Positions 8,819 to 40,067 of a stretch of 64,000 nucleotides of DNA are shown here, piece by piece. The translations under genes and the position numbers were made by a program. The stretch covers positions 1 through 64,000 of the forward strand of contig CANQZC010000002.1 in assembly GCA_947628235.1 (NCBI GenBank), in the 5' to 3' direction. Positions within the stretch are counted from its first letter, which is position 1. The number at the start of each line of letters is the position of its first letter. The notes under the pieces are model-generated. The model was given only the letters and a program-made list of their open reading frames with translations. It was not told where the DNA came from and did not search any database. This stretch comes from an uncultured Bacilli bacterium. Its GTDB lineage: Bacteria > Bacillota_I > Bacilli_A > RF39 > UBA660.

Positions 8819-8853
8819 AAAAATGTAGATATCAAAAGTATCTACATTTTTTT
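8819..8853 (+). terminator. Intrinsic terminator after the M4-vWA gene
   Basis: AAATGTAGATA pairs with TATCTACATTT around a short loop, followed by T residues to 8853. Its T-run merges into the 39-bp repeat that begins at 8849. Confidence 0.85.
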
Positions 8854-8887
8854 GATAGTAAAAGAAAAACGATTCATTTTGAATCGT
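8849..8887 (-). repeat. 39-bp terminator repeat, copy 1
   Basis: Identical over 39 bases to 11006-11044. On the minus strand it contains the hairpin ACGATTC/GAATCGT followed by a T-rich run, placed one base after the stop codon of the lipoprotein gene. The two copies bracket the two-gene module 8888-10989. Confidence 0.9.
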
Positions 8888-9619
8888 TTAACTAATTTTC
8901 TTTTTTCCTACTACTTCATACTTATAAGTGTTTACATACTTTTCAATAGGACTTTTATTTTCAAATATTTTTTCCTCTTGTAAATTTCCATTTTCATCAT
9001 AAGATTTAACTATTTTAAAAATGTTATTTTTGGATGTCTCAGTTTGAATAACTAGCTTACCATCTTCATCATATTCATATTCATAGATGCAATAGTAATT
9101 ATCACTAACATATTTTTTATAAATTAGTTGACCTTTCTCATCATATTTATAAGTTTCGGTACTTTCTCCATCTGAATCTTTTTCTTTCATTGTTAAAATT
9201 TTACCATTCTCATCGTATTCATATTCATAACTGATAAGTTCTTCTAGGTTATCATCTGAATCTTTGTAGATCTGTGTTAAAACATTATTATATTTATCGT
9301 AGGTATATTTTCTAATTGTTATATCATAAGGACCATTTTCTGTTTTTTGAATCACATTTCCGTTTTCATCATAAGTCATTTTGTAAGTGGTTCTTCTTTT
9401 GGTACCTTCTTTATCATAAGATGTATCATATTCTAAAATATTTCCGGTATCTTCATCAATTTTATAATTTGTATAATAAGTGGTGTCTTTAAAAATAGCA
9501 TTATATTCTTCAACGATGGCATAAACATCTTCGTATTTTATTTCTTTTTCTTTCTTATCGTTTCCACATCCAACAAGCAGAAGTAACAGAAATATGTAAG
9601 TAAAAAATTTTTTACTCAT
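8888..9619 (-). CDS. YD-repeat lipoprotein
   Basis: The 243-residue protein has a lipoprotein signal peptide with lipobox LVGC (Cys about residue 18), so it should be lipid-anchored outside the membrane. The body is a run of about eight YD/RHS-like repeats of the form YDE.GN/K.....K, each roughly 20-25 residues. Such repeats form extended beta structures in RHS toxins and wall-associated proteins; no toxin tip is present here. Its ATG overlaps the stop of the upstream TPR gene by one base (TAATG), so the two are translationally coupled. It ends in the 39-bp terminator repeat. Confidence 0.8.
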   Translation of the reverse strand: MSKKFFTYIFLLLLLVGCGNDKKEKEIKYEDVYAIVEEYNAIFKDTTYYTNYKIDEDTGNILEYDTSYDKEGTKRRTTYKMTYDENGNVIQKTENGPYDITIRKYTYDKYNNVLTQIYKDSDDNLEELISYEYEYDENGKILTMKEKDSDGESTETYKYDEKGQLIYKKYVSDNYYCIYEYEYDEDGKLVIQTETSKNNIFKIVKSYDENGNLQEEKIFENKSPIEKYVNTYKYEVVGKKKIS

Positions 9620-10989
9620 TATTTAACCTTTTTAAATGTAATTTTACTAGTGTATTTATTTGTAAAGTCTTGAGAATATGCAGTGTCATTTAGAGTGAAA
9701 GATAATTTAATTTTACCAGAAGAATAAGTAAGTGTTGTTTTTCCAACAGTACCATCAGGCGCAAAAGCAGATGGATATGAACTAACTAATTTAGATGGTA
9801 TTTTCTTACCTTTTTTGACAGTGAAATCAATTGGGGCATCAAATTCTTTTTCATTCACTGCATAACCAAGAGTAGAATAATTAACATAAGAATAGAAGGT
9901 AGGGTTTCCACTAACTTTAACAGACCCATCTCCCTTAATAACACAAGTAATTTCAAATGAAGAACTGAAAGAATTATACCAAGACTCCCAAGAACCATCA
10001 TATTTCCATATCTGTCTTACCTCATATTTTCCTTTGCTTCCTTTCCAAGTACCACTTAGATCAACAAAAGATTTATATTTTTCTAATGTATCTAATCGCT
10101 CAGATACTTTTAAACCATTGTATTCAAAATCTTTAGGTAATTTTTTAAATTTCTTTTGAGCATCGTAAAGTTTTCCTGCTTGATAATTTTCTTCTGCTAA
10201 AAGGAAATTACAAACATTAATCTTGTTTTCGCTGTCTTCATATTTTTTTGCTTTTTTATAATTATCAATAGCATCTTTATATTTTTTATTTTCTAATAAA
10301 TCTTCGGCTTTTAAATAATAGGCTCTATTGAGTTCTTCTTCACTATTTAAGAAATCTCCCAATTCAAAGAAAGCTTCAATTGCATCATCAAAATTTTTTT
10401 CTTCTACATTTTTTTCAGCTTGTGCATAAGAAACATAATTTTCCTTTTCTTTGTTATTGGTAAGACTTAAATTTTTAAGTGCTTCTGCATATTTTCCTTT
10501 TTCAATAAGTTGCTTTGCGTACTCAAAATAAGCAACATCTAATTTTTTCTTTGTATCTTTATATTCTGGATTTTTAGAATAATATTTTACAGCTTGTTCA
10601 TAATTTTTCTTGTCAAAATTTTCGGCTGCTTTATTGTAATAAATACTTGGTAGAATAGCTACTTTGAAAAGAATACCGCCAACTACTAAAATAGCAATAG
10701 CAATACAAGAAATGATTATTGCTTTTTTAGCTTTTGGTGATTTTAGTTTCTCTAAAAAAACTAGATTATTAGAGACATTGTTTTCATTGATAATAGGGTC
10801 TTCTGGGGTAATTATTTCTTCTCCCGTTTCTTCCTCTAATATCTCTTCTTTTTTCTGTTGCTCTTTCACATTTTTCGCTTTTGCTTCTTGTTTTTCTCTA
10901 GGTTTAGAAGCATTTTTTTGGTTTCCCTTTTTTTCTTTTTTTTGAGTAGAGTTTTTTTCCTCCTCATTCTTTTTCAACTTTTTTTCCAT
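9619..10989 (-). CDS. Membrane TPR-repeat protein
   Basis: The 456-residue protein begins with ~80 Lys/Glu-rich residues (cytoplasmic, probably coiled or disordered). One transmembrane helix follows (IIISCIAIAILVVGGILF), then several TPR-like helical repeats (YNKAAENFDKKNYEQAVKYY, YFEYAKQLIEKGKYAEAL, YLKAEDLLENKKYKDAI), and a C-terminal beta-rich domain starting SGTWKGSKGKY. ATG 10989 is preferred to ATG 10995 because GAGGAG lies 8 bases upstream of it but only one base from the other. It forms an operon with the YD lipoprotein. The function is unknown; TPRs suggest binding of a partner at the cell surface. Confidence 0.75.
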   Translation of the reverse strand: MEKKLKKNEEEKNSTQKKEKKGNQKNASKPREKQEAKAKNVKEQQKKEEILEEETGEEIITPEDPIINENNVSNNLVFLEKLKSPKAKKAIIISCIAIAILVVGGILFKVAILPSIYYNKAAENFDKKNYEQAVKYYSKNPEYKDTKKKLDVAYFEYAKQLIEKGKYAEALKNLSLTNNKEKENYVSYAQAEKNVEEKNFDDAIEAFFELGDFLNSEEELNRAYYLKAEDLLENKKYKDAIDNYKKAKKYEDSENKINVCNFLLAEENYQAGKLYDAQKKFKKLPKDFEYNGLKVSERLDTLEKYKSFVDLSGTWKGSKGKYEVRQIWKYDGSWESWYNSFSSSFEITCVIKGDGSVKVSGNPTFYSYVNYSTLGYAVNEKEFDAPIDFTVKKGKKIPSKLVSSYPSAFAPDGTVGKTTLTYSSGKIKLSFTLNDTAYSQDFTNKYTSKITFKKVK

Positions 10990-11005
10990 AAACATACTCC
11001 TCTAC

Positions 11006-11044
11006 TTTTTGATAGTAAAAGAAAAACGATTCATTTTGAATCGT
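11006..11044 (-). repeat. 39-bp terminator repeat, copy 2
   Basis: Identical to 8849-8887. It terminates the zinc-ribbon gene at 11050 and at the same time lies just upstream of the TPR gene, whose promoter must lie in or next to it. Confidence 0.9.
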
Positions 11045-11049
11045 CTTTT

Positions 11050-11430
11050 TTAATAACTTTGAATAAAATTAATTTCTATCGTATTCGTAAGGAGTCCCAT
11101 TTTAATAGGACATTGGAAAACTAAATTTCGATAAGTATCATTGATGACGAAATTAGTTGTTCCATGACACATACCGGCATGGATAGTTAATTCTTGATTT
11201 CCATAATATAATGGGAAAGTTTTGGTTTCGCCATTTTTGACTTTTCCTAATAAATATCCATTTACAGATACATTATAGGCAATTGCACATCCATAAAAAC
11301 TTTTTGGTCTTACAATTGTAATACTTCCTATTCCTGGTTGATTATTCATCGTAGGGGCAATTGTATTTCCGCATTGCGTACAAAAATTAGATCCATTTAC
11401 TAAAGTAGCGCCACATACTGGACAACTCAT
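11050..11430 (-). CDS. Small zinc-ribbon protein
   Basis: The 126-residue protein starts with a zinc ribbon (CPVCG...FCTQCG) and continues into a ~95-residue beta-like domain containing VSVNGYLLGKVKNGE, which resembles the glycine-turn beta domains found after such ribbons in Bacillota. There is no membrane helix, so it is probably cytoplasmic. AAGGTG precedes ATG. It lies 11 bases after the M32 carboxypeptidase gene in the same direction, so it may be co-transcribed with it, and ends at the 39-bp repeat terminator. Confidence 0.65.
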   Translation of the reverse strand: MSCPVCGATLVNGSNFCTQCGNTIAPTMNNQPGIGSITIVRPKSFYGCAIAYNVSVNGYLLGKVKNGETKTFPLYYGNQELTIHAGMCHGTTNFVINDTYRNLVFQCPIKMGLLTNTIEINFIQSY

Positions 11431-22290: not shown

Positions 22291-22905
22291 ATGCAGGAAG
22301 AAAAAGAAGATATTAGAAAAGATTTATTAGTCATACTAGAAGATCGAATCGCTAAAAAACGGAAAGAGATTGAGATTGCTTCTAAAGAATTTAATCAGAT
22401 GGAAGCTCTTGCTAAATTAATCTCTAGTATAGATAGTGATTTAAGAAATTTAAAATACTATTTTCGCGAAAAGTTAGAATCTGTTTTAGAACCATTCTAT
22501 CGTCCTACTGAATTGGTAGAGATATTAGATAAACTAGAATTAATTCGTCTAGTTCTTTCTCTAGAATCACAAGGAATTAGTCTAGAATTAAACGATGAAG
22601 AAATTGGTATTAAAGATAAATTTATTCATGATTTAAAAACTATTTATGAGGTAGAATCTAAAAAAATTCCTGCTGAAAAAGATAGTTTCTTAGCTGCTTT
22701 AGATGCGAATTTATCTCATTTAAATGGAATTCATAGAAAGATTAAATTAAATGGTAAGGGTAGTGAAATATTACATAAAGATGAAATAGATTCTTTAATT
22801 CGTATTGTACTAGAAGAAGAACCACCTATTGATACACAAGTATCTATCCTTTGCTTTGTAAATCATCTAAATTTACAAGTTATTGATAAAAAACAAAATG
22901 TATAA
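22291..22905 (+). CDS. Uncharacterised helical protein, partner of 21012-22289
   Basis: The 204-residue protein is almost entirely helical and charged (start MQEEKEDIRKDLL, then EFNQMEALAKLISSIDSDL). It has no recognised motif, signal peptide or membrane segment. Ribosome site GAGGGG overlaps the end of the previous gene, indicating tight co-expression. A short AT-rich hairpin follows the stop. Possibly a coiled-coil partner of the upstream protein; inference only. Confidence 0.5.
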   Translation: MQEEKEDIRKDLLVILEDRIAKKRKEIEIASKEFNQMEALAKLISSIDSDLRNLKYYFREKLESVLEPFYRPTELVEILDKLELIRLVLSLESQGISLELNDEEIGIKDKFIHDLKTIYEVESKKIPAEKDSFLAALDANLSHLNGIHRKIKLNGKGSEILHKDEIDSLIRIVLEEEPPIDTQVSILCFVNHLNLQVIDKKQNV

Positions 22906-22989
22906 AATCCTTAAAAAAGGATTTTTTTCTTTGTATATTTTAAATTTTGTGGTACAATAACACTTGATTGAAGCGGAAAGGGTGGAAAA

Positions 22990-23652
22990 ATGAAAAAAGT
23001 AGGGACAATCTTTGTATTAGCCATTTCTCTATTTTTAATGAGTGGCTGTGTGAAACAAACCGTAGATATGAAAATTTCAAAGGATGGAAAAATTGATTTA
23101 ACCGTTATATCTGCTATCTCTAAGGACTTTTTAGAAGATAGCGAAGGTTCTATTGCGCAAAGGGAAGACTTTGAAAAACTAGGTTATGAAGTAGAAGATT
23201 ATGATGATTCTGAAAAGGTAGGCGTAAAAGCAACTAAGACTTATTCTTTAGAAGAAGTTAGTGATACCAAAGAAACACAAGTACACTTAGAAGATATTGC
23301 AGAAGAGAGTTTAGATGGTAAACAATTATTTCAATTAGTAAGTGAAAACTTTTTAGGACAAAGATATAAAGGAAACTTTATTATTGATTTAACGAAAGTA
23401 GGAAATAGTCCTATCGAAGGATCAGAAATTTCTTACTCCGTAACACTTCCTTCTAAAGCAAAGAGTCACAATGCTGATGAAGTAAAAGGAAATACCTTAA
23501 CTTGGCATCTAGAAATTGGCGAAGTAAAAGAAATTCAATATGAGTTTATGATGAATGACAGAACCTATTTACTTGTCATTGCTGGAATTCTAGGACTTGC
23601 CATTATTGTTGCAGGAATTATTCTTTTCATATCAAAACATAAAAAAGCATAG
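22990..23652 (+). CDS. Lipoprotein with C-terminal membrane helix (LppM-like)
   Basis: The 220-residue protein has a lipoprotein signal peptide with lipobox MSGC, then a beta-rich domain starting VKQTVDMKISKDGKIDLTV, as in LppM/DUF3153-type proteins, and a single C-terminal transmembrane helix (about 193-215) followed by SKHKKA. It is anchored at both ends with the domain outside. The role is unknown; relatives are wall-associated. TGG-TACAAT (22950-22958) is a likely promoter. Its stop is followed immediately by the first copy of a 41-bp repeat. Confidence 0.7.
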   Translation: MKKVGTIFVLAISLFLMSGCVKQTVDMKISKDGKIDLTVISAISKDFLEDSEGSIAQREDFEKLGYEVEDYDDSEKVGVKATKTYSLEEVSDTKETQVHLEDIAEESLDGKQLFQLVSENFLGQRYKGNFIIDLTKVGNSPIEGSEISYSVTLPSKAKSHNADEVKGNTLTWHLEIGEVKEIQYEFMMNDRTYLLVIAGILGLAIIVAGIILFISKHKKA

Positions 23653-23693
23653 AAAAACTTCACATTTGTGAAGTCTTTTTTATAGTTTTAAAA
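23653..23693. repeat. 41-bp terminator repeat, copy 1
   Basis: Identical over all 41 bases to 27264-27304. It contains hairpin ACTTCAC/GTGAAGT plus T-run, and its last ~13 bases equal the 3' end (stop and last codons) of the gene at 27291. It starts directly after the stop of the lipoprotein gene. Confidence 0.92.
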
Positions 23694-23745
23694 GATTGTG
23701 AAATGAAGTGAAATATATTATAATTAGAAAAAAGAAGGCGATTTT

Positions 23746-24576
23746 ATGAATCAGGAAAAAATGGGAAAATTTATTGCAAAATGCCGGAAAGAAAAAAATT
23801 TAACACAAGCTCAGTTATCTGAAATGATAAATGTTGGCAGTAAGACAATTTCTAAGTGGGAAACAGGAATTGGTGCCCCAGATATATTTTTATTAGAAGA
23901 ACTTGGAAAAGCACTAGGAGTAACGCCAATGGATATTTTAAATGGTGAAAAAATAACTTCTAATACTACCAAAGAGATTATGAATAGCGCATATGATACT
24001 GCAAAATTTTATACTAATTTAAGTAAGAAAAAATCTGCCATAAAAATGATAAAGATTTCTCTAGGTATAATCATACTATTCGTATTTATTACTTTGGGAA
24101 TAATATTAAAAAATAATTATAATAATTGTTTTATGTATTCTTTTACAAGTGAGAATAGTGCATATGGTATAAATGGAATACTTATAGATACAGTAGAAAA
24201 GGATATTGTTTCAATTAATTCAATTGATTTAAAAGAAGATGCAGAGATAGCTGATGAAAAATATTATGATTTTCAGTACACTTTAAATGTTGGAAAAAAG
24301 GAAGTTTACACATCTGGTGATATTTTATCATTTAGTCTCGATGAAAAAAAAGAACTTAAACCATTAAATACAATATTTGAAAATATACATATTTTTATTT
24401 CTGAAGATGATGCTTATAATGAGGCATTAGAAGAGGGGTTTATAAAAGAGGATTTTTCAATAGTTATTAGATATACAGATGAAAAATTTGAACTTAAAAC
24501 AATTAATATTCCACTAGGGAAAAAAATAATTTTTTCTAATAATAAATTTTCTTATAGTAGTGGAGAAAATTTTTAA
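23746..24576 (+). CDS. XRE-family regulator with membrane helix
   Basis: The 276-residue protein has an N-terminal Cro/CI helix-turn-helix (residues ~5-65: LTQAQLSEMINVGSKTISKWETG, then PDIFLLEELGKALGVTP). One transmembrane helix follows (about 105-123), and a ~150-residue outer domain without a known family. Membrane-bound XRE regulators often sense a signal outside the cell and control an adjacent transporter; here an ABC/FtsX fusion follows. The gene lies inside the segment bounded by two identical 41-bp repeats, and its Asn/Lys/Ile-rich codons look more AT-rich than its neighbours, which fits transfer. Confidence 0.8.
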   Translation: MNQEKMGKFIAKCRKEKNLTQAQLSEMINVGSKTISKWETGIGAPDIFLLEELGKALGVTPMDILNGEKITSNTTKEIMNSAYDTAKFYTNLSKKKSAIKMIKISLGIIILFVFITLGIILKNNYNNCFMYSFTSENSAYGINGILIDTVEKDIVSINSIDLKEDAEIADEKYYDFQYTLNVGKKEVYTSGDILSFSLDEKKELKPLNTIFENIHIFISEDDAYNEALEEGFIKEDFSIVIRYTDEKFELKTINIPLGKKIIFSNNKFSYSSGENF

Positions 24577-24865
24577 AAAAATTTATATTTCACTAAAAGT
24601 AGATACAATCTCCAAATTGGATACAGAATTCTCTTTTTTGGGGGTGTATTTTTTTTGTGACCTTTGTTAGACTTTTTTTAGGAAGGAGAAAAAATGGAAA
24701 AGTTTAAAAAGGCTAGTCGATAATAGTCTTTGCTTTGCTGCTGTTTCTAGTTAAAGTGACAGGTTTAAAAACAGGATTACATTATTTTGTTAAAGTATTG
24801 GCACCTGCCCATTTTTCTGCTATAGTTTCAAGATATTAAATAAAAAACATAAAGGAAGTGAAACA
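24577..24865 (+). other. Gap with a broken small membrane ORF
   Basis: This stretch holds no intact gene. It contains an AGGAGAAA-ATG start at 24694 that stops after nine codons and a second frame that looks like the rest of a small membrane protein (24723-24839). Confidence 0.5.
24694..24839 (+). pseudogene. Frameshifted small membrane protein remnant
   Basis: ATG 24694 with a GGAAGGAG site encodes MEKFKKASR and then stops. In another frame 24723-24836 encodes a hydrophobic segment (IVFALLLFLVKVTGLKTGL) and a tail ending VSRY before TAA. Joined, they would give a ~47-residue one-helix protein, so a single frameshift is likely. It sits just before the ABC/FtsX gene and may once have been a small transporter partner. 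Confidence 0.4.
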
Positions 24866-27265
24866 ATGATTGAAATCAAGAATGTATCTAAGACTTATCA
24901 TCCTAAACGGGGAAAAGCCGTAAAAGCGATTGACCATATTTCTTTAAATTTTAACGGAAATGGATTTGTTTTCATTACGGGAAAGAGTGGTTCTGGAAAA
25001 TCTACTTTATTAAATTTAATCGGTGGATTAGATAGTTATGACTCTGGAGATATTTGCATTTTAGGGAAAAGTAGTCGAGAGTTTACTTCTTCTCAATTTG
25101 ATTCCTACCGAAATACTTATGTAGGATTTGTTTTTCAAGAAGATAATCTATTAGAAGATTATAATGTTTATGAAAATATTTCTTTAGCCTTACAGTTACA
25201 GCAAAGAAAAAGTGAGGAAAACGAAATAGAACATTTACTTCAAAAATTAAATTTAAAAGATTTTGAAAAAAGAAAAGTAAATGAATTATCGAGAGGTCAA
25301 AAACAAAGAGTTGCTTTAGCACGCGCCCTTATTAAAAATCCGAAAATGATATTAGCAGATGAGCCAACTGGAAATCTAGATAGTAAAACAAGTGAGCAAG
25401 TATTTGATTTTTTAAAAGAAATTAGTAAAGAAAAACTAGTAATTGTAGTATCACATGATAAAAAGATGGCTCATCTTTATGGAGATAGAATTATTGAAAT
25501 AAAAGATGGACAAGTAATTAGTGATACCATTAAAAATCAAGAAACTATTGAAGAGAAAGACACCTATCATTCTAAGACTTCTAAATTACCATGGAAAGAA
25601 AGTTTTAAGCTTGGGATAGGTTTTTTAAAACATAAGAAAATAAGATTGATTATTACGACACTTTTTATGGCAGTATCGTTATTGTTCTTTAGTGTCCTTG
25701 ATACATTATCTAGTTATAATCTCAATTTAGCCCATTCTAAACTGTTGAAAGAAAAAGGAGAGAATTTTGTTCAGATTGAAAAATCTAAGGTTTCTGAATC
25801 TGGAGGTTATATTACGAAAGATCTTCAGCCTTTAAAAAAAGAAGAAGCAGAAATGATTCAAAGGAAAGTAAAAGATGGCAAACCTATTTTTCAACTTCAA
25901 AGTGGAGATATTTTTTCTGAGATTACAGATGTATTTCATATTGTGAACTTACCTTATGAAGGACTTTTTGTAGAATTTGTTGTGGACAATCCATTTGATT
26001 ATTTAAAAGAAGTTTCTTTGATTGGAAAAGTTCCTACCTCTTCTAAAGAGATTGTGATATCTAATTATATTGCTTTACTAATGATAGAGAATGGCGTTTT
26101 ATTAGCAAATTCAGATACCATATATCAACCAAAGAATTATCAGGATATTTTAAATCATACTTTTCGCTTGGGAGAAAAAGCAGAAGCAACCATTGTTGGT
26201 ATTATAGAATACGATTTAACCGAATATCAAAAGATAGAAGAAAAAAATTCTTCGCAGCCCAATTCTATGAGTAATCAAGATTACTTTACTTTAACAGAAT
26301 ATAATCGAAAGAAGCATAATGTTTATAATAAAGTTTTTGTTCGTGAAGATTTTATTGAGTATCTTCAATCCATCGAAAAAGATACGGTTAGTAGAGATTT
26401 CTCTTTTCAATTAACTTCTAAAGATTTTTCTATGACAAAACGAGGGTATGAACTTTCTTTCATAGATGATAATTTAAAATATTATGATGGAGAAAAATGG
26501 GTTACTGTAACTGATTTAGAACCTAACGAAATTGTTTTAAGTACCCATCAATTAGAAAGTTCTAATGGGATGGGATTAAGTGTTACTTTAGATGTTTTTG
26601 ATTCTTCCGAAACATTATTTCATCAATATCCAAATTTAAAAGTAGTTGGGGTAACGGAGGATGATACCTATTATGTATCTTCTCAACTTTTAGAAGATTA
26701 TATGAAAGAAGCAGTTCCAGAAACAGGAATCTTTATTTTAGAGAATCGTCAAAAGGAACTAAAAAAATGGATGGATCAATTTGATTTAAGAAGTGAAATT
26801 TCTTTAAAAAGTACCTATAGTGATGATATTTTGGAAGTGGTTCATACGGTAGAATTGTTAAAGAAAATAGCATACTATCTTGCTCTTTTCTTCTTCCTCT
26901 TTGCAGTGATTTTAATTTCTAATTTTATGGTTTCTAGTATAAGTCATCGAAAAAGAGAAATAGGTATTTTAAGATCTCTTGGAGCGCATCGTTTAGATGT
27001 TATGAAAGTCTTTTTATGGGAAGGAATCCTTTTATCTCTCTTTGCATTCCTTACGAGTTTTGGAGGACTAATTCTGGTAACCAATCTCCTCAATAAGGAA
27101 CTAGTAAGTAGTGGTATTTATTTCGTATTAACGCCATTTATCGTAACGATAAGACAGGCTATCGTCTTATTCCTTTTTGTTCATGGCATTGTCTTTTTCT
27201 CTAGTATTTTTCCAATTATTCATTTTACTAGAAAAAGGCCGATAGATATGATACAGGCAAATTAA
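24866..27265 (+). CDS. ABC transporter ATPase-FtsX permease fusion (MacB-like)
   Basis: The 799-residue protein fuses an ABC ATPase (1-~225; Walker A FITGKSGSGKST, signature LSRGQKQRVALARAL with Arg instead of the second Gly, Walker B MILADEPTGN, switch His in VSHD) to an FtsX/MacB permease. The permease has one helix near 262-282, a large outer domain (~290-660) and three C-terminal helices (about 670-790). Type VII (MacB-like) exporters use such parts to extrude peptides or lipoproteins or to signal bacitracin-like stress. Placement after a membrane XRE regulator suggests an inducible defence exporter. The gene ends within the second 41-bp repeat. Confidence 0.88.
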   Translation: MIEIKNVSKTYHPKRGKAVKAIDHISLNFNGNGFVFITGKSGSGKSTLLNLIGGLDSYDSGDICILGKSSREFTSSQFDSYRNTYVGFVFQEDNLLEDYNVYENISLALQLQQRKSEENEIEHLLQKLNLKDFEKRKVNELSRGQKQRVALARALIKNPKMILADEPTGNLDSKTSEQVFDFLKEISKEKLVIVVSHDKKMAHLYGDRIIEIKDGQVISDTIKNQETIEEKDTYHSKTSKLPWKESFKLGIGFLKHKKIRLIITTLFMAVSLLFFSVLDTLSSYNLNLAHSKLLKEKGENFVQIEKSKVSESGGYITKDLQPLKKEEAEMIQRKVKDGKPIFQLQSGDIFSEITDVFHIVNLPYEGLFVEFVVDNPFDYLKEVSLIGKVPTSSKEIVISNYIALLMIENGVLLANSDTIYQPKNYQDILNHTFRLGEKAEATIVGIIEYDLTEYQKIEEKNSSQPNSMSNQDYFTLTEYNRKKHNVYNKVFVREDFIEYLQSIEKDTVSRDFSFQLTSKDFSMTKRGYELSFIDDNLKYYDGEKWVTVTDLEPNEIVLSTHQLESSNGMGLSVTLDVFDSSETLFHQYPNLKVVGVTEDDTYYVSSQLLEDYMKEAVPETGIFILENRQKELKKWMDQFDLRSEISLKSTYSDDILEVVHTVELLKKIAYYLALFFFLFAVILISNFMVSSISHRKREIGILRSLGAHRLDVMKVFLWEGILLSLFAFLTSFGGLILVTNLLNKELVSSGIYFVLTPFIVTIRQAIVLFLFVHGIVFFSSIFPIIHFTRKRPIDMIQAN

Positions 27266-27304
27266 AAACTTCACATTTGTGAAGTCTTTTTTATAGTTTT
27301 AAAA
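27264..27304. repeat. 41-bp terminator repeat, copy 2
   Basis: Identical to 23653-23693. It begins in the stop codon of the ABC/FtsX gene, holds a bidirectional terminator, and reaches into the last codons of the convergent gene at 27291. It bounds a ~3.6-kb module on the right. Confidence 0.92.
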
Positions 27305-28103
27305 ACTTTTTATAATTTAAGTAAGCTTTTTCACTCTTCCAATAGTTACCATCTTCATCACGGAAGAAGTTTGTGATTGGGAAGATTGGTTTCTTTTTCT
27401 TCTTGGCAGCGGTTAATACTTCTACACTTTCAATTTCTTCTCTCTTTTGATTTTCTAGTTGTTCTGTTAGGGTAAATACTAATCCACCATTTCTAGCTCG
27501 ATTATCGAAGAGTTGGAAATTTCTTTTCCATAAATAACTTCCTGTTTCGGAATATTCATTAATAGGAACACCATTACTACTTAATTTTTCTTGGAATTCT
27601 CGCCACTCATAGATTACCGAAATTTCTCTACTTAATAATTCTTTTCCATGTTTCGCAACATACTGATAGTAAGCAACATCTTCATCAGTAGTGTTTGTTT
27701 CTTTTTCCATCGTCTCTTTAATACTATCTGTTATTTTGGCAGCAGAGATACGATATTTTTTATTTCCAACAGGCATTCTTACAATGAGAGTGTCTTTCTT
27801 ATTTTCTTTTTTAATTACTTGAAATTCGATAGGGACAACGGCAACGGCTTCTAATAAACTATATGGGTCTGTAGGAGTACTTAATTCTAATGCGAATGGT
27901 ACTTCAAAAGCATCTTTAGAAATTCCTAATTTTTCTTGAAATAATCGGTTTAAGAACATATCTCGACTAATCCAGTTCTTGGTGTGTTCATAAATAATGC
28001 GGTATTCTTCTTTGTTAAGGAAAGAGTCGAGGGGCTCAAAACCGTCTAAAAATTGGTCTAAAGTAGGCATTGCCATGGTTAGGTTTTTAGTTATCATGTC
28101 CAT
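27291..28103 (-). CDS. Uncharacterised soluble protein
   Basis: This protein of about 270 residues has no motif I recognise. It is soluble, with N-terminal TMAMPTLDQFLDGFEPLDSF and a C-terminal KKKKKPIFPITNFFRDEDGNYWKSEKAY segment that looks like a small basic, aromatic domain. Start 28103 is chosen because GGGGTGAG lies 5 bases upstream and the alternative GTG (28112) is part of it. It is convergent with the ABC/FtsX module; its 3' end is duplicated in the 41-bp repeat at 23653, suggesting it once faced the lipoprotein gene at 22990. Confidence 0.5.
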   Translation of the reverse strand: MDMITKNLTMAMPTLDQFLDGFEPLDSFLNKEEYRIIYEHTKNWISRDMFLNRLFQEKLGISKDAFEVPFALELSTPTDPYSLLEAVAVVPIEFQVIKKENKKDTLIVRMPVGNKKYRISAAKITDSIKETMEKETNTTDEDVAYYQYVAKHGKELLSREISVIYEWREFQEKLSSNGVPINEYSETGSYLWKRNFQLFDNRARNGGLVFTLTEQLENQKREEIESVEVLTAAKKKKKPIFPITNFFRDEDGNYWKSEKAYLNYKKFLKL

Positions 28104-28194
28104 TACACTCACCCCATTTTATTCAATTTAAGTATAACTTTTTTACCTAGAAAAGTCAATGGAAGAAAGGCGTCTTGACAATCGGGTGTGTAAA

Positions 28195-29244
28195 CTAAAA
28201 TTTCCCTAAGATAGAAATACTAGTAAGGAGGGGATAAAGATTTGTTCCAACACAATTTTCTAAGGAAGAGAGGATAACTTTTTTTGCATCTCCATACGCA
28301 TGAATGACTTGGGTGGGAGAGAGTGCTAGTAAGATATGTCCTTTCTTATGGAGAAGGAGAGGGTATTTTAAAGTACTTAGAATTTCTTTTTTTTCTAATT
28401 CTGTTTTTCCTTTTAGATCGATTTTCTTTCTTCCTACTACTTTTTCTTGCTGTTCTGTATCTCTTGGAAAGGTAAATCCAAATACTTGAAAGATAGATTG
28501 AATGAGAAAAGAACAATCTACTCCATTTTCAATTGCCCCCCAGTAGTAGGGAATCCCTAAATATTCTTTAGCGAGTTCTAAAATATTTACTCTGGTATAG
28601 GGAAGGTATCCTATATGGGCATATTCTTTACTAATATTATGAATTGTGATTCCTTCTTTGGTAGGGAGTAATGCTTCATAATAGGTATCATGAATTCCTA
28701 AGAGAGGAAGTTTTGTTCCTAAGTCGATAAAGGTATTTAAGTATGGAATGAGTGGTTTTGTAATAATAATATATTTAGAAGGTTCTTCAAATAAGAGACG
28801 ATCTTGAGAAGAAATGGGAAGAATTTCTTCTTTTTTAATCCAACCCCGATAGAAAGGACTTTGGACATAGTTCCACTTTTTATCAAGACTTTCATGAAGA
28901 ATGAGAAGAGGGGTAGAAAGGGGGATAACCGTGGCAATATTTTCTTCTACAATAGCGGAGAGAAAAAAATGTTCTTCGGTTGGATAATATTTTAAAGTAC
29001 CGCGTTTAATCGCAATCGCACTTTCTCTTATTCCTTCTTCTGGAATATGAAGAATGTTTCGATTCTCTAAAATTTCTTTAGAAAGGGGTAAATTTAATTT
29101 TTTCTCTGTTTTAAAATATTCTAAAATTTCTTTTCTCGAAAAGGTTGTAGGGAAATTTTTAAGACGTACTAAAGATTCTTCTTCTAACTGCATTCTTGTA
29201 TTTTCTCGTTCAATTTCTGAAGGAGATAAAATCACTGAATTCAT
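28195..29244 (-). CDS. NlpC/P60 peptidase with SH3-like domains (YkfC-like)
   Basis: The 349-residue protein has two bacterial SH3-like regions (about 60-215), then an NlpC/P60 domain: YYWGAIENGVDCSF with catalytic Cys 244, then KKGHILLAL with the catalytic His, then VIHAYG. This order matches YkfC-type gamma-D-glutamyl-L-diamino acid endopeptidases, which trim murein peptides taken up by the cell. There is no signal peptide, consistent with cytoplasmic recycling. GAGGAA is the ribosome site. Neighbours give no pathway support. Confidence 0.82.
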   Translation of the reverse strand: MNSVILSPSEIERENTRMQLEEESLVRLKNFPTTFSRKEILEYFKTEKKLNLPLSKEILENRNILHIPEEGIRESAIAIKRGTLKYYPTEEHFFLSAIVEENIATVIPLSTPLLILHESLDKKWNYVQSPFYRGWIKKEEILPISSQDRLLFEEPSKYIIITKPLIPYLNTFIDLGTKLPLLGIHDTYYEALLPTKEGITIHNISKEYAHIGYLPYTRVNILELAKEYLGIPYYWGAIENGVDCSFLIQSIFQVFGFTFPRDTEQQEKVVGRKKIDLKGKTELEKKEILSTLKYPLLLHKKGHILLALSPTQVIHAYGDAKKVILSSLENCVGTNLYPLLTSISILGKF

Positions 29245-38731: not shown

Positions 38732-38857
38732 GGAAGAGATGTGGAAACACTACTTGCAGCGGGTTCAGTATATCATGAAATGATGTTTTGCAAGTAACTT
38801 TGATATATATAACCCTGTCATTAATTGATAAATCAATTATTCAATTCGTTCTCTTCC
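38732..38857 (+). ncRNA. Structured RNA upstream of the reverse transcriptase
   Basis: A ~126-nt leader lies between the promoter and the RT start. Terminal helix: GGAAGAGA (38732-38739) with TCTCTTCC (38850-38857), 8 bp perfect. Inside are: GTG-GAAA-CAC hairpin (38741-38750); TACTTGCA (38751-38758) with TGCAAGTA (38789-38796), 8 bp; GGGTT and TATATCA (38761-38765, 38769-38775) with TGATATA and AACCC (38801-38807, 38811-38815), which crosses the previous helix and so forms a pseudoknot or an alternative fold; and TAATTGA/TCAATTA hairpin with loop TAAA (38822-38839). The ribosome site GGTGGTG follows the terminal helix. This layout recalls retron msr-msd or DRT ncRNAs, but no known class is recognised. 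It could also be an mRNA leader that controls the RT. Confidence 0.75.
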
Positions 38858-38870
38858 TTGGTGGTGAATT

Positions 38871-40067
38871 ATGTCTCCGTTAGAGCGTTTAATAGAGGAT
38901 AAGGAATGGGATTCTTTTTTAGAATATCAAGAAAATAGATATCTTCCTAAAAAAGAATTAGAAGAATTAAAAGAGTATATTGAAAAAAGAAAATATCAAG
39001 ATGCCTGTCATCGTATTTTAGAGGGTACTTATACTTTTTCCATTCCCCAAAAGAAGTATATTAATAAAAATGGAAGTTCTAAAAAGAGAATTGTTTATTC
39101 TTTTCCCAAAGAAGAAACGATTCTTTTAAAAATGGTTCATTATCTTTTTCAGGATTATGATTTCCTACTTGCTTCTAACTGTTATTCTTTTCGTAAGAAG
39201 ATTGGTCCAAAACAAGCTTTTGAAGAGATTTTGAAAAAGCATCATGGATATGGATATAAAGTAGATATTCATAATTATTTTAATAGTATTCCTATCTCTA
39301 AGCTATTGCCGATGTTAGAAGAAAAATTAGATTCTTTTTCCTATACTTTTTTAAAATCTATATTAGAGTCCAAGAAAGTATCTTATCAAGGGGAAATTAT
39401 CGAAGAAGAAAAAGGTGTCATGGCAGGAACTCCTATCTCTTGTTTCTTATCGAATCTGTATTTATCAGAATTAGACTTTCGGATGAAAAAAGAATGCTAC
39501 GCGAGATATGCTGATGATATTCTATTATTTATGGATACGAAAGAAGCCTTAGAAGAAAAAGTAAAAGAGATGCATGCCATTTTCTCTTCTTTAGAATTAA
39601 CGATTAATCCTGAAAAAGAAAAGTATATTGATATTCAATCTCCTTTCGAATTCTTAGGATTTTCTTATTATCAAGGAGAAATTGACTTAGCGGATCATGC
39701 TAAAAAGAAAATGAAAGATAAGATTCGAAGAAAAGCAAGGGCGTTAAGAAGATGGATGCTTCGGAAAAATCTTCCCCCTGAAAAAGCCATGAAAGCTTTA
39801 AATAATATTTTTAATTATAAGTTTTTTTGTGAGAAAAAGGGACGGGAATTAAATTGGAGTATTTGGTATTTTCCCGTTTTAACAACGGATTGTAGTTTGA
39901 AAGAAATCGACCATTATTTTCAAGATCAATTACGATACATCAAAACCGGTAGAGTTCATCAAAAAGATAAAAGAAACATTCCTTACGAAGTATTAAAAGA
40001 AACAGGATATCGAAGTTTAGTTTATGAATATTATGCATTTCAAAAAAGAAAGAGTAGTCATATTTGA
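38871..40067 (+). CDS. Reverse transcriptase (retron/DRT-like, unassigned class)
   Basis: The 398-residue protein has all core RT motifs in order: RT1 KKRIVYSFP; RT2 LASNCYSFRKKIGPKQAF; RT3 YKVDIHNYFNSI (Asp132); RT4 KGVMAGTPISCFLSNLYL; RT5 YARYADDILLF with the YADD catalytic box (213-216); RT6 LTINPEKEK; RT7 FEFLGFSYY; then a ~130-residue basic helical thumb/C-terminal part. There is no group II maturase or endonuclease domain, no DGR-type motif and no obvious retron VTG motif. It lies 13 bases after a structured RNA and ends in a terminator-like hairpin (around 40045-40080); the following methyltransferase-like gene has its own promoter. The unit is therefore one RNA plus one RT. A defence role is inferred from such architectures, not shown. 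Confidence 0.9.
   Translation: MSPLERLIEDKEWDSFLEYQENRYLPKKELEELKEYIEKRKYQDACHRILEGTYTFSIPQKKYINKNGSSKKRIVYSFPKEETILLKMVHYLFQDYDFLLASNCYSFRKKIGPKQAFEEILKKHHGYGYKVDIHNYFNSIPISKLLPMLEEKLDSFSYTFLKSILESKKVSYQGEIIEEEKGVMAGTPISCFLSNLYLSELDFRMKKECYARYADDILLFMDTKEALEEKVKEMHAIFSSLELTINPEKEKYIDIQSPFEFLGFSYYQGEIDLADHAKKKMKDKIRRKARALRRWMLRKNLPPEKAMKALNNIFNYKFFCEKKGRELNWSIWYFPVLTTDCSLKEIDHYFQDQLRYIKTGRVHQKDKRNIPYEVLKETGYRSLVYEYYAFQKRKSSHI

Follow-up and report, generated by a model that had tools for sequence, protein, structure and literature searches.

In a 64,000-nucleotide stretch of the genome of an uncultured Bacilli bacterium (GenBank assembly GCA_947628235.1, contig CANQZC010000002.1, positions 1 to 64,000; hereafter, the window), two identical 41-bp copies of a terminator-like sequence enclose a module of ~3570 bp on the forward strand (23694–27263, with boundaries ambiguous within the repeat), which encodes an XRE-type regulator and an exporter combining an ABC ATPase with an FtsX permease. 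This operon was very probably inserted at the shared bidirectional terminator of two convergent genes, leaving 41 bp of the target in duplicate. A second gene block of the window, bracketed in the same manner by an unrelated terminator, has the same geometry.

The 41-bp direct repeat (T1) occupies positions 23653–23693 (left copy) and 27264–27304 (right copy), with a spacing of 3611 and 100% identity, as a sequence-only reading of this DNA had pointed out. These are the only 2 matches to the 41-mer, allowing up to 3 mismatches, in the whole assembly, which comprises 1,608,055 bases in 38 contigs; the reversed control gave 0 matches. The expectation for the 25-base core of the 41-mer, also with up to 3 mismatches, is 0.00 per shuffled window (100 shuffles). 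The assembly count and the shuffled-window expectation rule out a chance origin of the repeat, and the presence of only 2 copies likewise rules out a genome-wide family of repeated terminators. The 41-mer, which reads ACTTCACA-TTT-GTGAAGT at its terminator, folds on either strand into a stem-loop (−8.0 and −11.3 kcal/mol, with z values of −2.6 and −4.4), and both copies score as terminator-like on the plus strand, with a T-run behind the hairpin. Given a hairpin on either strand and a T-run on the plus strand, the predicted structure could act as a bidirectional terminator. The left copy begins directly behind the stop codon of the left flanking gene (23652), whereas the right copy extends from the last 2 bases of the exporter stop codon (27263–27265) through the stop codon of the gene facing it. 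The last third of the 41-mer is the coding end of this facing gene; accordingly, the right copy contains its stop and last codons, and the left copy carries the same gene-end bases, just as had been described from the sequence.

The left flanking gene (22990–23652, plus strand) encodes a 220-aa lipoprotein with an LppM domain (Pfam, E = 1.6e-15), and the facing gene on the right (27291–28112, minus strand) encodes a 273-aa protein matching no Pfam family. The start of the latter is the predicted GTG of the listed open reading frame (ORF), and the real start may differ; the end at 28103 given previously does not correspond to this ORF. The facing gene is present in 5 of the 12 genomes of the genus, namely, the host genome itself and G008, G009, G002, and G003, and within 291 genomes of the family, it was found in 2, including the host, all from this genus. 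It is thus genus-specific in this sample and adjoins an LppM-like lipoprotein gene.

In all 4 relatives possessing the facing gene, the best match to the lipoprotein adjoins it in convergent orientation, with no module in between. In G008, the closest relative by protein identity (72%), the 2 genes are separated by 22 bp containing a single terminator, and the last 18 bases of the 41-mer, TTTTTTATAGTTTTAAAA, comprising the T-run and the gene end, are identical. Alignment of both copies with the G008 site showed that this sequence is the true end of the facing gene in G008 and that the right copy runs on into the facing gene. The alignment between the window and G008 runs to position 23693, resumes at 27255 with a shift of ~3.57 kb, and continues for many kilobases on both sides. 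Because the module is absent from all 4 relatives that have the site, it is extra in the window, and the gene-end bases of the left copy duplicate the end of the facing gene. Both copies of the repeat, the empty site in relatives, and the derivation of the gene-end bases in the left copy from the facing gene are seen directly. The history envisaged in the sequence-only reading, in which 2 genes once faced each other across 1 terminator before a ~3.6-kb piece was inserted, is supported by the 22-bp gap and single terminator of G008, and the contrary expectation, that related genomes would all have the module, is contradicted by the 4 relatives with the site.

The second bracket was revealed by a direct-repeat scan and is new with respect to the earlier reading. 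It consists of an exact 39-bp direct repeat with a hairpin terminator (T2; 8849–8887 and 11006–11044), which encloses 2 genes on the minus strand (8888–10995), encoding a TPR-like protein of 458 aa and an RHS-repeat-like lipoprotein of 243 aa. The right copy is the terminator of a zinc-ribbon gene (11050–11430, minus strand), so that the order on the minus strand is the zinc-ribbon gene, T2, the 2-gene block, T2, and then a convergent thermolysin-type protease gene. The last stop codon of the block abuts T2, in the same geometry as in the T1 bracket; overall, both blocks end 0 to 2 bp from their last stop codons, and at the left end, each junction falls within an A-run that extends into the target. 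No core is common to T1 and T2, as their score of 9 was reached by 112 of 400 random terminator pairs. The 458-aa protein has only partial matches, none of them full-length, in 2 of the 11 other genomes of the genus, and a second partial match in the host genome (G000:C2:128611). An empty site could not be demonstrated for this bracket, since the region downstream of the zinc-ribbon gene varies among the relatives.

To gauge how common such brackets are, exact repeats of at least 24 bases located 400 to 20,000 bases apart were collected from portions of the host genome (826,607 bases) and of G008, G002, and G003 (475,656 bases in total). The host genome contained 9 repeat pairs that were largely noncoding by the measure of the script, 2 of which are terminators and correspond to the T1 and T2 brackets, whereas no largely noncoding pair was reported in the 3 relatives. 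A looser scan, which looked for similar hairpins in part of this sequence and in 45 additional loci, most of them from other genomes (1,076,998 bases in all), recovered no pairs but these 2.

The inserted module opens with a promoter-like sequence (TTGTGA-17-TATAAT; 23696–23724, plus strand; 10 of 12), the first base of which lies 3 bases inside the insert; promoter-like sites in the region number 35 versus 27.4 expected in shuffled sequences, which is weak support, such sites being frequent in A+T-rich DNA. The first gene (23746–24576, plus strand) encodes the XRE-type regulator (HTH_3, E = 1.1e-13), with 1 transmembrane segment at approximately residues 102–120 according to hydropathy; its C-terminal part is probably located outside the cell. 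A small ORF broken by a frameshift follows (24694–24839, plus strand), with the start in one frame and a hydrophobic continuation (24717–24836), including 1 transmembrane segment, in another. The continuation has no Pfam or NCBIfam match, and a search of family genomes with this piece yielded 2 weak matches interrupted by stops (3 of 386 genomes, counting the host). The last gene (24866–27265, plus strand) encodes a 799-aa MacB-like exporter in which an ABC ATPase (ABC_tran, E = 3.9e-33) is fused to an FtsX permease (E = 6.2e-17). MacB is its best relative of solved structure. The hydropathy peaks of the window protein lie at approximately residues 261–279, 672–690, 712–738, and 754–784, with a weaker one at 396–414. 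Neither a Pfam match to the MacB periplasmic domain in the exporter nor a MacA-type partner gene inside the insert was found. The module probably works as a sensor–exporter pair, in which the XRE regulator, bound to the membrane, responds to something extracellular and controls the MacB-like exporter.

The C-termini of the exporters bear on the position of the right junction. All 31 other complete exporters compared, 5 of which derive from the same contig seen twice (2 truncated sequences were left out), end in PxDAILxK/R; the window copy has the same length but terminates in PIDMIQAN. The stop codon thus occupies the family-typical position, and the end of the exporter is the natural one, with the terminator directly behind it. 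The C-terminus PIDAILNK is nearly invariant in the exporter family (L120–L137 and L092–L097), being conserved to the last residue, and has been lost in the window copy; such conservation suggests that the tail has a function.

Several observations point to an outside origin of this regulator–exporter operon, namely, DNA matches restricted to the ABC part, the position of the exporter in a phylogenetic tree, and the low GC content of the regulator gene. In a DNA search of 386 genomes of the family, among the matches listed, those outside the locus cover only the ABC part, with identities of up to 76% (~70% to 74% for the longer ones). In the tree, the window exporter forms a long branch outside the branch holding 5 of the 6 exporters of the genus compared (supports 99/94 and 94/99), the sixth, from G009, being a distant outlier. 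The GC content of the XRE gene lies at the 1.6th percentile of 554 genes, placing it among the most A+T-rich. Exporters of this kind are common in the host family and occur in differing neighborhoods. When 25 loci were searched with the XRE protein, 3 had a match with E < 0.01 (L079, at 0.007, and L098 and L099, which lack a full-length exporter), and the 3-gene order of XRE regulator, peptide, and ABC exporter was not conserved in relatives at these loci. Loci L123 and L133, in which the exporter lies next to a divergent XRE-like gene and a small membrane ORF, form a loose parallel to the module. A phage origin of the regulator was considered and rejected, as phage and plasmid sequences match it in no more than the HTH part, at most 28% of the protein, and viral contigs yielded no match.

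No element-encoded mover was recognized in the insert. As stated in the earlier reading, there is no transposase or integrase inside: Pfam searches of both intact genes detected no transposase, integrase, or recombinase, and the remainder has no long ORF. No phage or conjugation gene was found in the insert by ORF inspection and Pfam, no RNA family was detected in positions 22900–28300 at E = 0.1, and no inverted repeat among the 25 longest connects the 2 insert ends. A transposon or insertion sequence was rejected on account of the missing transposase (Pfam), the lack of terminal inverted repeats among these 25, and the 41-bp duplication. The argument that 41 bp is too long for a target duplication holds fairly for a transposase, but it overlooked that this is an ordinary length for the repeats at recombinase attachment sites.

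Of the explanations that we considered, a copy-type insertion in which the operon was added and the terminator duplicated in one step is the best overall, although we hold it with slightly less than even confidence. A copying process requiring no dedicated enzyme is tentatively advanced as the mechanism and would involve template switching or repair. After copying the terminator once, a replication fork or repair end would switch to incoming DNA at an A-run, continue through the operon as far as its last stop codon, and switch back just before the terminator, which would then be copied again. The outcome would insulate all transcription units, with the left copy ending the lipoprotein transcript and the right copy ending both the exporter operon and the facing gene. 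We favor copying ahead of an integrase acting in trans because T1 (41 bp) and T2 (39 bp) resemble each other in length and geometry without having a common core, and because the left junctions lie in A-runs, the blocks end 0 to 2 bp from stop codons, and the exporter end is native to its family.

Four observations weigh against this interpretation. The 41-mer and the G008 site have different hairpins, and the comparison therefore does not fix the exact sequence that this species had there before the insertion; G009, G002, and G003 each have other hairpins at the convergent site, indicating that terminator stems change rapidly there. At 6 other sites where the window and G008 differ by a gene-sized insertion or deletion, the flanking repeats measure 8 to 12 bases, which is not above chance (random pairs averaged 10, with a 95% value of 12; the maximum was not used, because one control pair hit the 41-mer itself). 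The lack of a scar at these 6 sites implies that a terminator scar is not the usual appearance of gene gain or loss here; old scars would be expected to have faded. The 2 brackets, nearly equal in length, 12.6 kb apart, and flush with stop codons, are more orderly than random template switching would lead one to expect. Finally, no donor sequence was found among the matches listed in the family-wide DNA search, so that microhomology at the junctions cannot be checked.

The most serious competitor, which we nevertheless regard as somewhat unlikely, interprets the 41-bp repeats as attL and attR of a small integrase-less island moved in trans by a host recombinase, the target being the 3′ end of the facing gene together with its terminator. 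Such a target at the end of a gene, with the gene end restored by the repeat, and a repeat with inverted arms would fit this scenario, and potential recombinases exist elsewhere in the genome (4 tyrosine-recombinase and 2 serine-recombinase matches), one of the tyrosine recombinases being encoded on the same contig, ahead of an excisionase-like HTH ORF. The microcin H47 island, which demonstrates that parasitic mobility of this kind exists (PMC3191183), provides a precedent. Against this, the assembly holds no third copy of the 41-mer, and a 29-base part of it has no exact match in viral contigs; T1 and T2 lack a common core; no T1- or T2-like repeat was seen beside the 2 extra tyrosine recombinases; and the insert contains no phage or conjugation gene. 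The recombinase on the window's contig (309 aa) and the excisionase-like ORF (G000 contig C2, 124823–125997) are situated among lipoprotein-like genes, and no obvious phage gene was noticed by eye in 12 kb of ORFs around the recombinase.

A history in 2 steps, which we consider unlikely, would have the operon join the lipoprotein unit behind the lipoprotein stop codon and just before the terminator, so that the two shared a single terminator, which was later copied upstream, between the lipoprotein gene and the regulator gene, for instance by gene conversion, and retained as an insulator of the new promoter. The exporter indeed ends directly at the terminator, in the manner of the lipoprotein gene of G008; this geometry recurs in both brackets, and insulation would be selectable. 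However, the left copy holds coding-end bases of the facing gene that are useless there and sits exactly at the junction of lipoprotein gene and terminator seen in G008, and a one-step duplication explains both features. That the module is instead ancestral and was lost in the relatives, or is an assembly artifact of a metagenome bin, seems very improbable. The assembly consists of 38 contigs (94.1% complete, contamination 3.44), and repeats near the k-mer length can mislead assemblers, but loss in 4 lineages with a clean single terminator left each time is less simple, the alignment with G008 continues for many kilobases on both sides, the repeats differ in length (41 and 39 bp), and the exporter relatives have other neighbors. 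We also give little credence to a broader proposal, that a process in this lineage adds whole transcription units at intrinsic terminators, placing the last stop codon at the terminator and duplicating ~40 bp irrespective of sequence; it would amount to a structure-guided, integron-like gain of insulated blocks, driven by an integrase, a reverse transcriptase, or the replication fork.

Comparison with known systems places the module among small islands with direct repeats and no integrase, which are already known. The microcin H47 island of Escherichia coli spans 12.6 kb, has long imperfect direct repeats, and lacks a recombinase gene of its own; its excision and integration were demonstrated experimentally, and its sites occur in many strains, according to the account of the island in PMC3191183. 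Like this island, the window module is flanked by direct repeats, contains no recombinase gene, and has an empty site in relatives (4 of 4); unlike the island as described in that account, its repeat is 41 bp long, exact, and overlaps a terminator. As a candidate attachment sequence, the 41-mer was found in the host genome only at the 2 flanks, with 0 exact matches to its 29-base part in viral contigs and a different hairpin in G008, the relatives not all having been scanned. Integrative elements may use the 3′ end of a gene as their attachment site, with a direct repeat restoring the gene end. The repeat in the window likewise restores a 3′ end, but the module has neither an integrase nor a mobilization gene, and its core does not recur at a second site. 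Class C group II introns insert behind terminators and are not known to leave a 41-bp duplication. As for these introns, the landing place of the module is a terminator, whereas the insert has no reverse transcriptase (Pfam) and no RNA family at the threshold given above. The exporter resembles those of the MacB and BceAB types in combining an ATPase with an FtsX permease, and the N-terminal position of the ABC ATPase, fused to the permease, is as in MacB-type exporters; it differs in having no match to the MacB periplasmic domain and in being a single 799-aa chain beside an XRE regulator.

The repeat scan and the annotation of the region yielded 2 further observations. A 30-bp repeat at contig positions 82458, 87547, and 92414 was rejected as a bracket, as it represents a shared promoter region. 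This region (TTGACA ... TATAATGTTAATAACAA) precedes several ORFs at these positions of G000 contig C2, beyond the window, and is also present behind the zinc-ribbon gene in G011 and G007 (L166 and L168); the pattern resembles that of a small regulon controlled through one common operator. At positions 38748–40067 of the window, an RT-5 RNA (Rfam RF03026; 55.9 bits versus a cut-off of 45.7) lies directly upstream of a reverse-transcriptase gene (RVT_1, E = 4e-22) in a region that aligns to G008, and the pair is a candidate retron-like or other reverse-transcriptase system.

Searches of the literature, which are not proof of absence, showed no paper on terminator-bracketed gene blocks among the entries listed, and exact duplication of a terminator, found twice with the same geometry, was not met in the literature searched. 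Gene blocks often appear between neighboring genes with no visible mover, whereas here the scar is fresh and readable; this genome has it twice, and for 1 of the 2 brackets, relatives retain the empty site. If not general, the insertion described here would be a clean case of gene gain with no recombinase in the insert. If general, terminators would be safe landing places that also insulate the newcomer, and exact terminator pairs would count gene gains directly.

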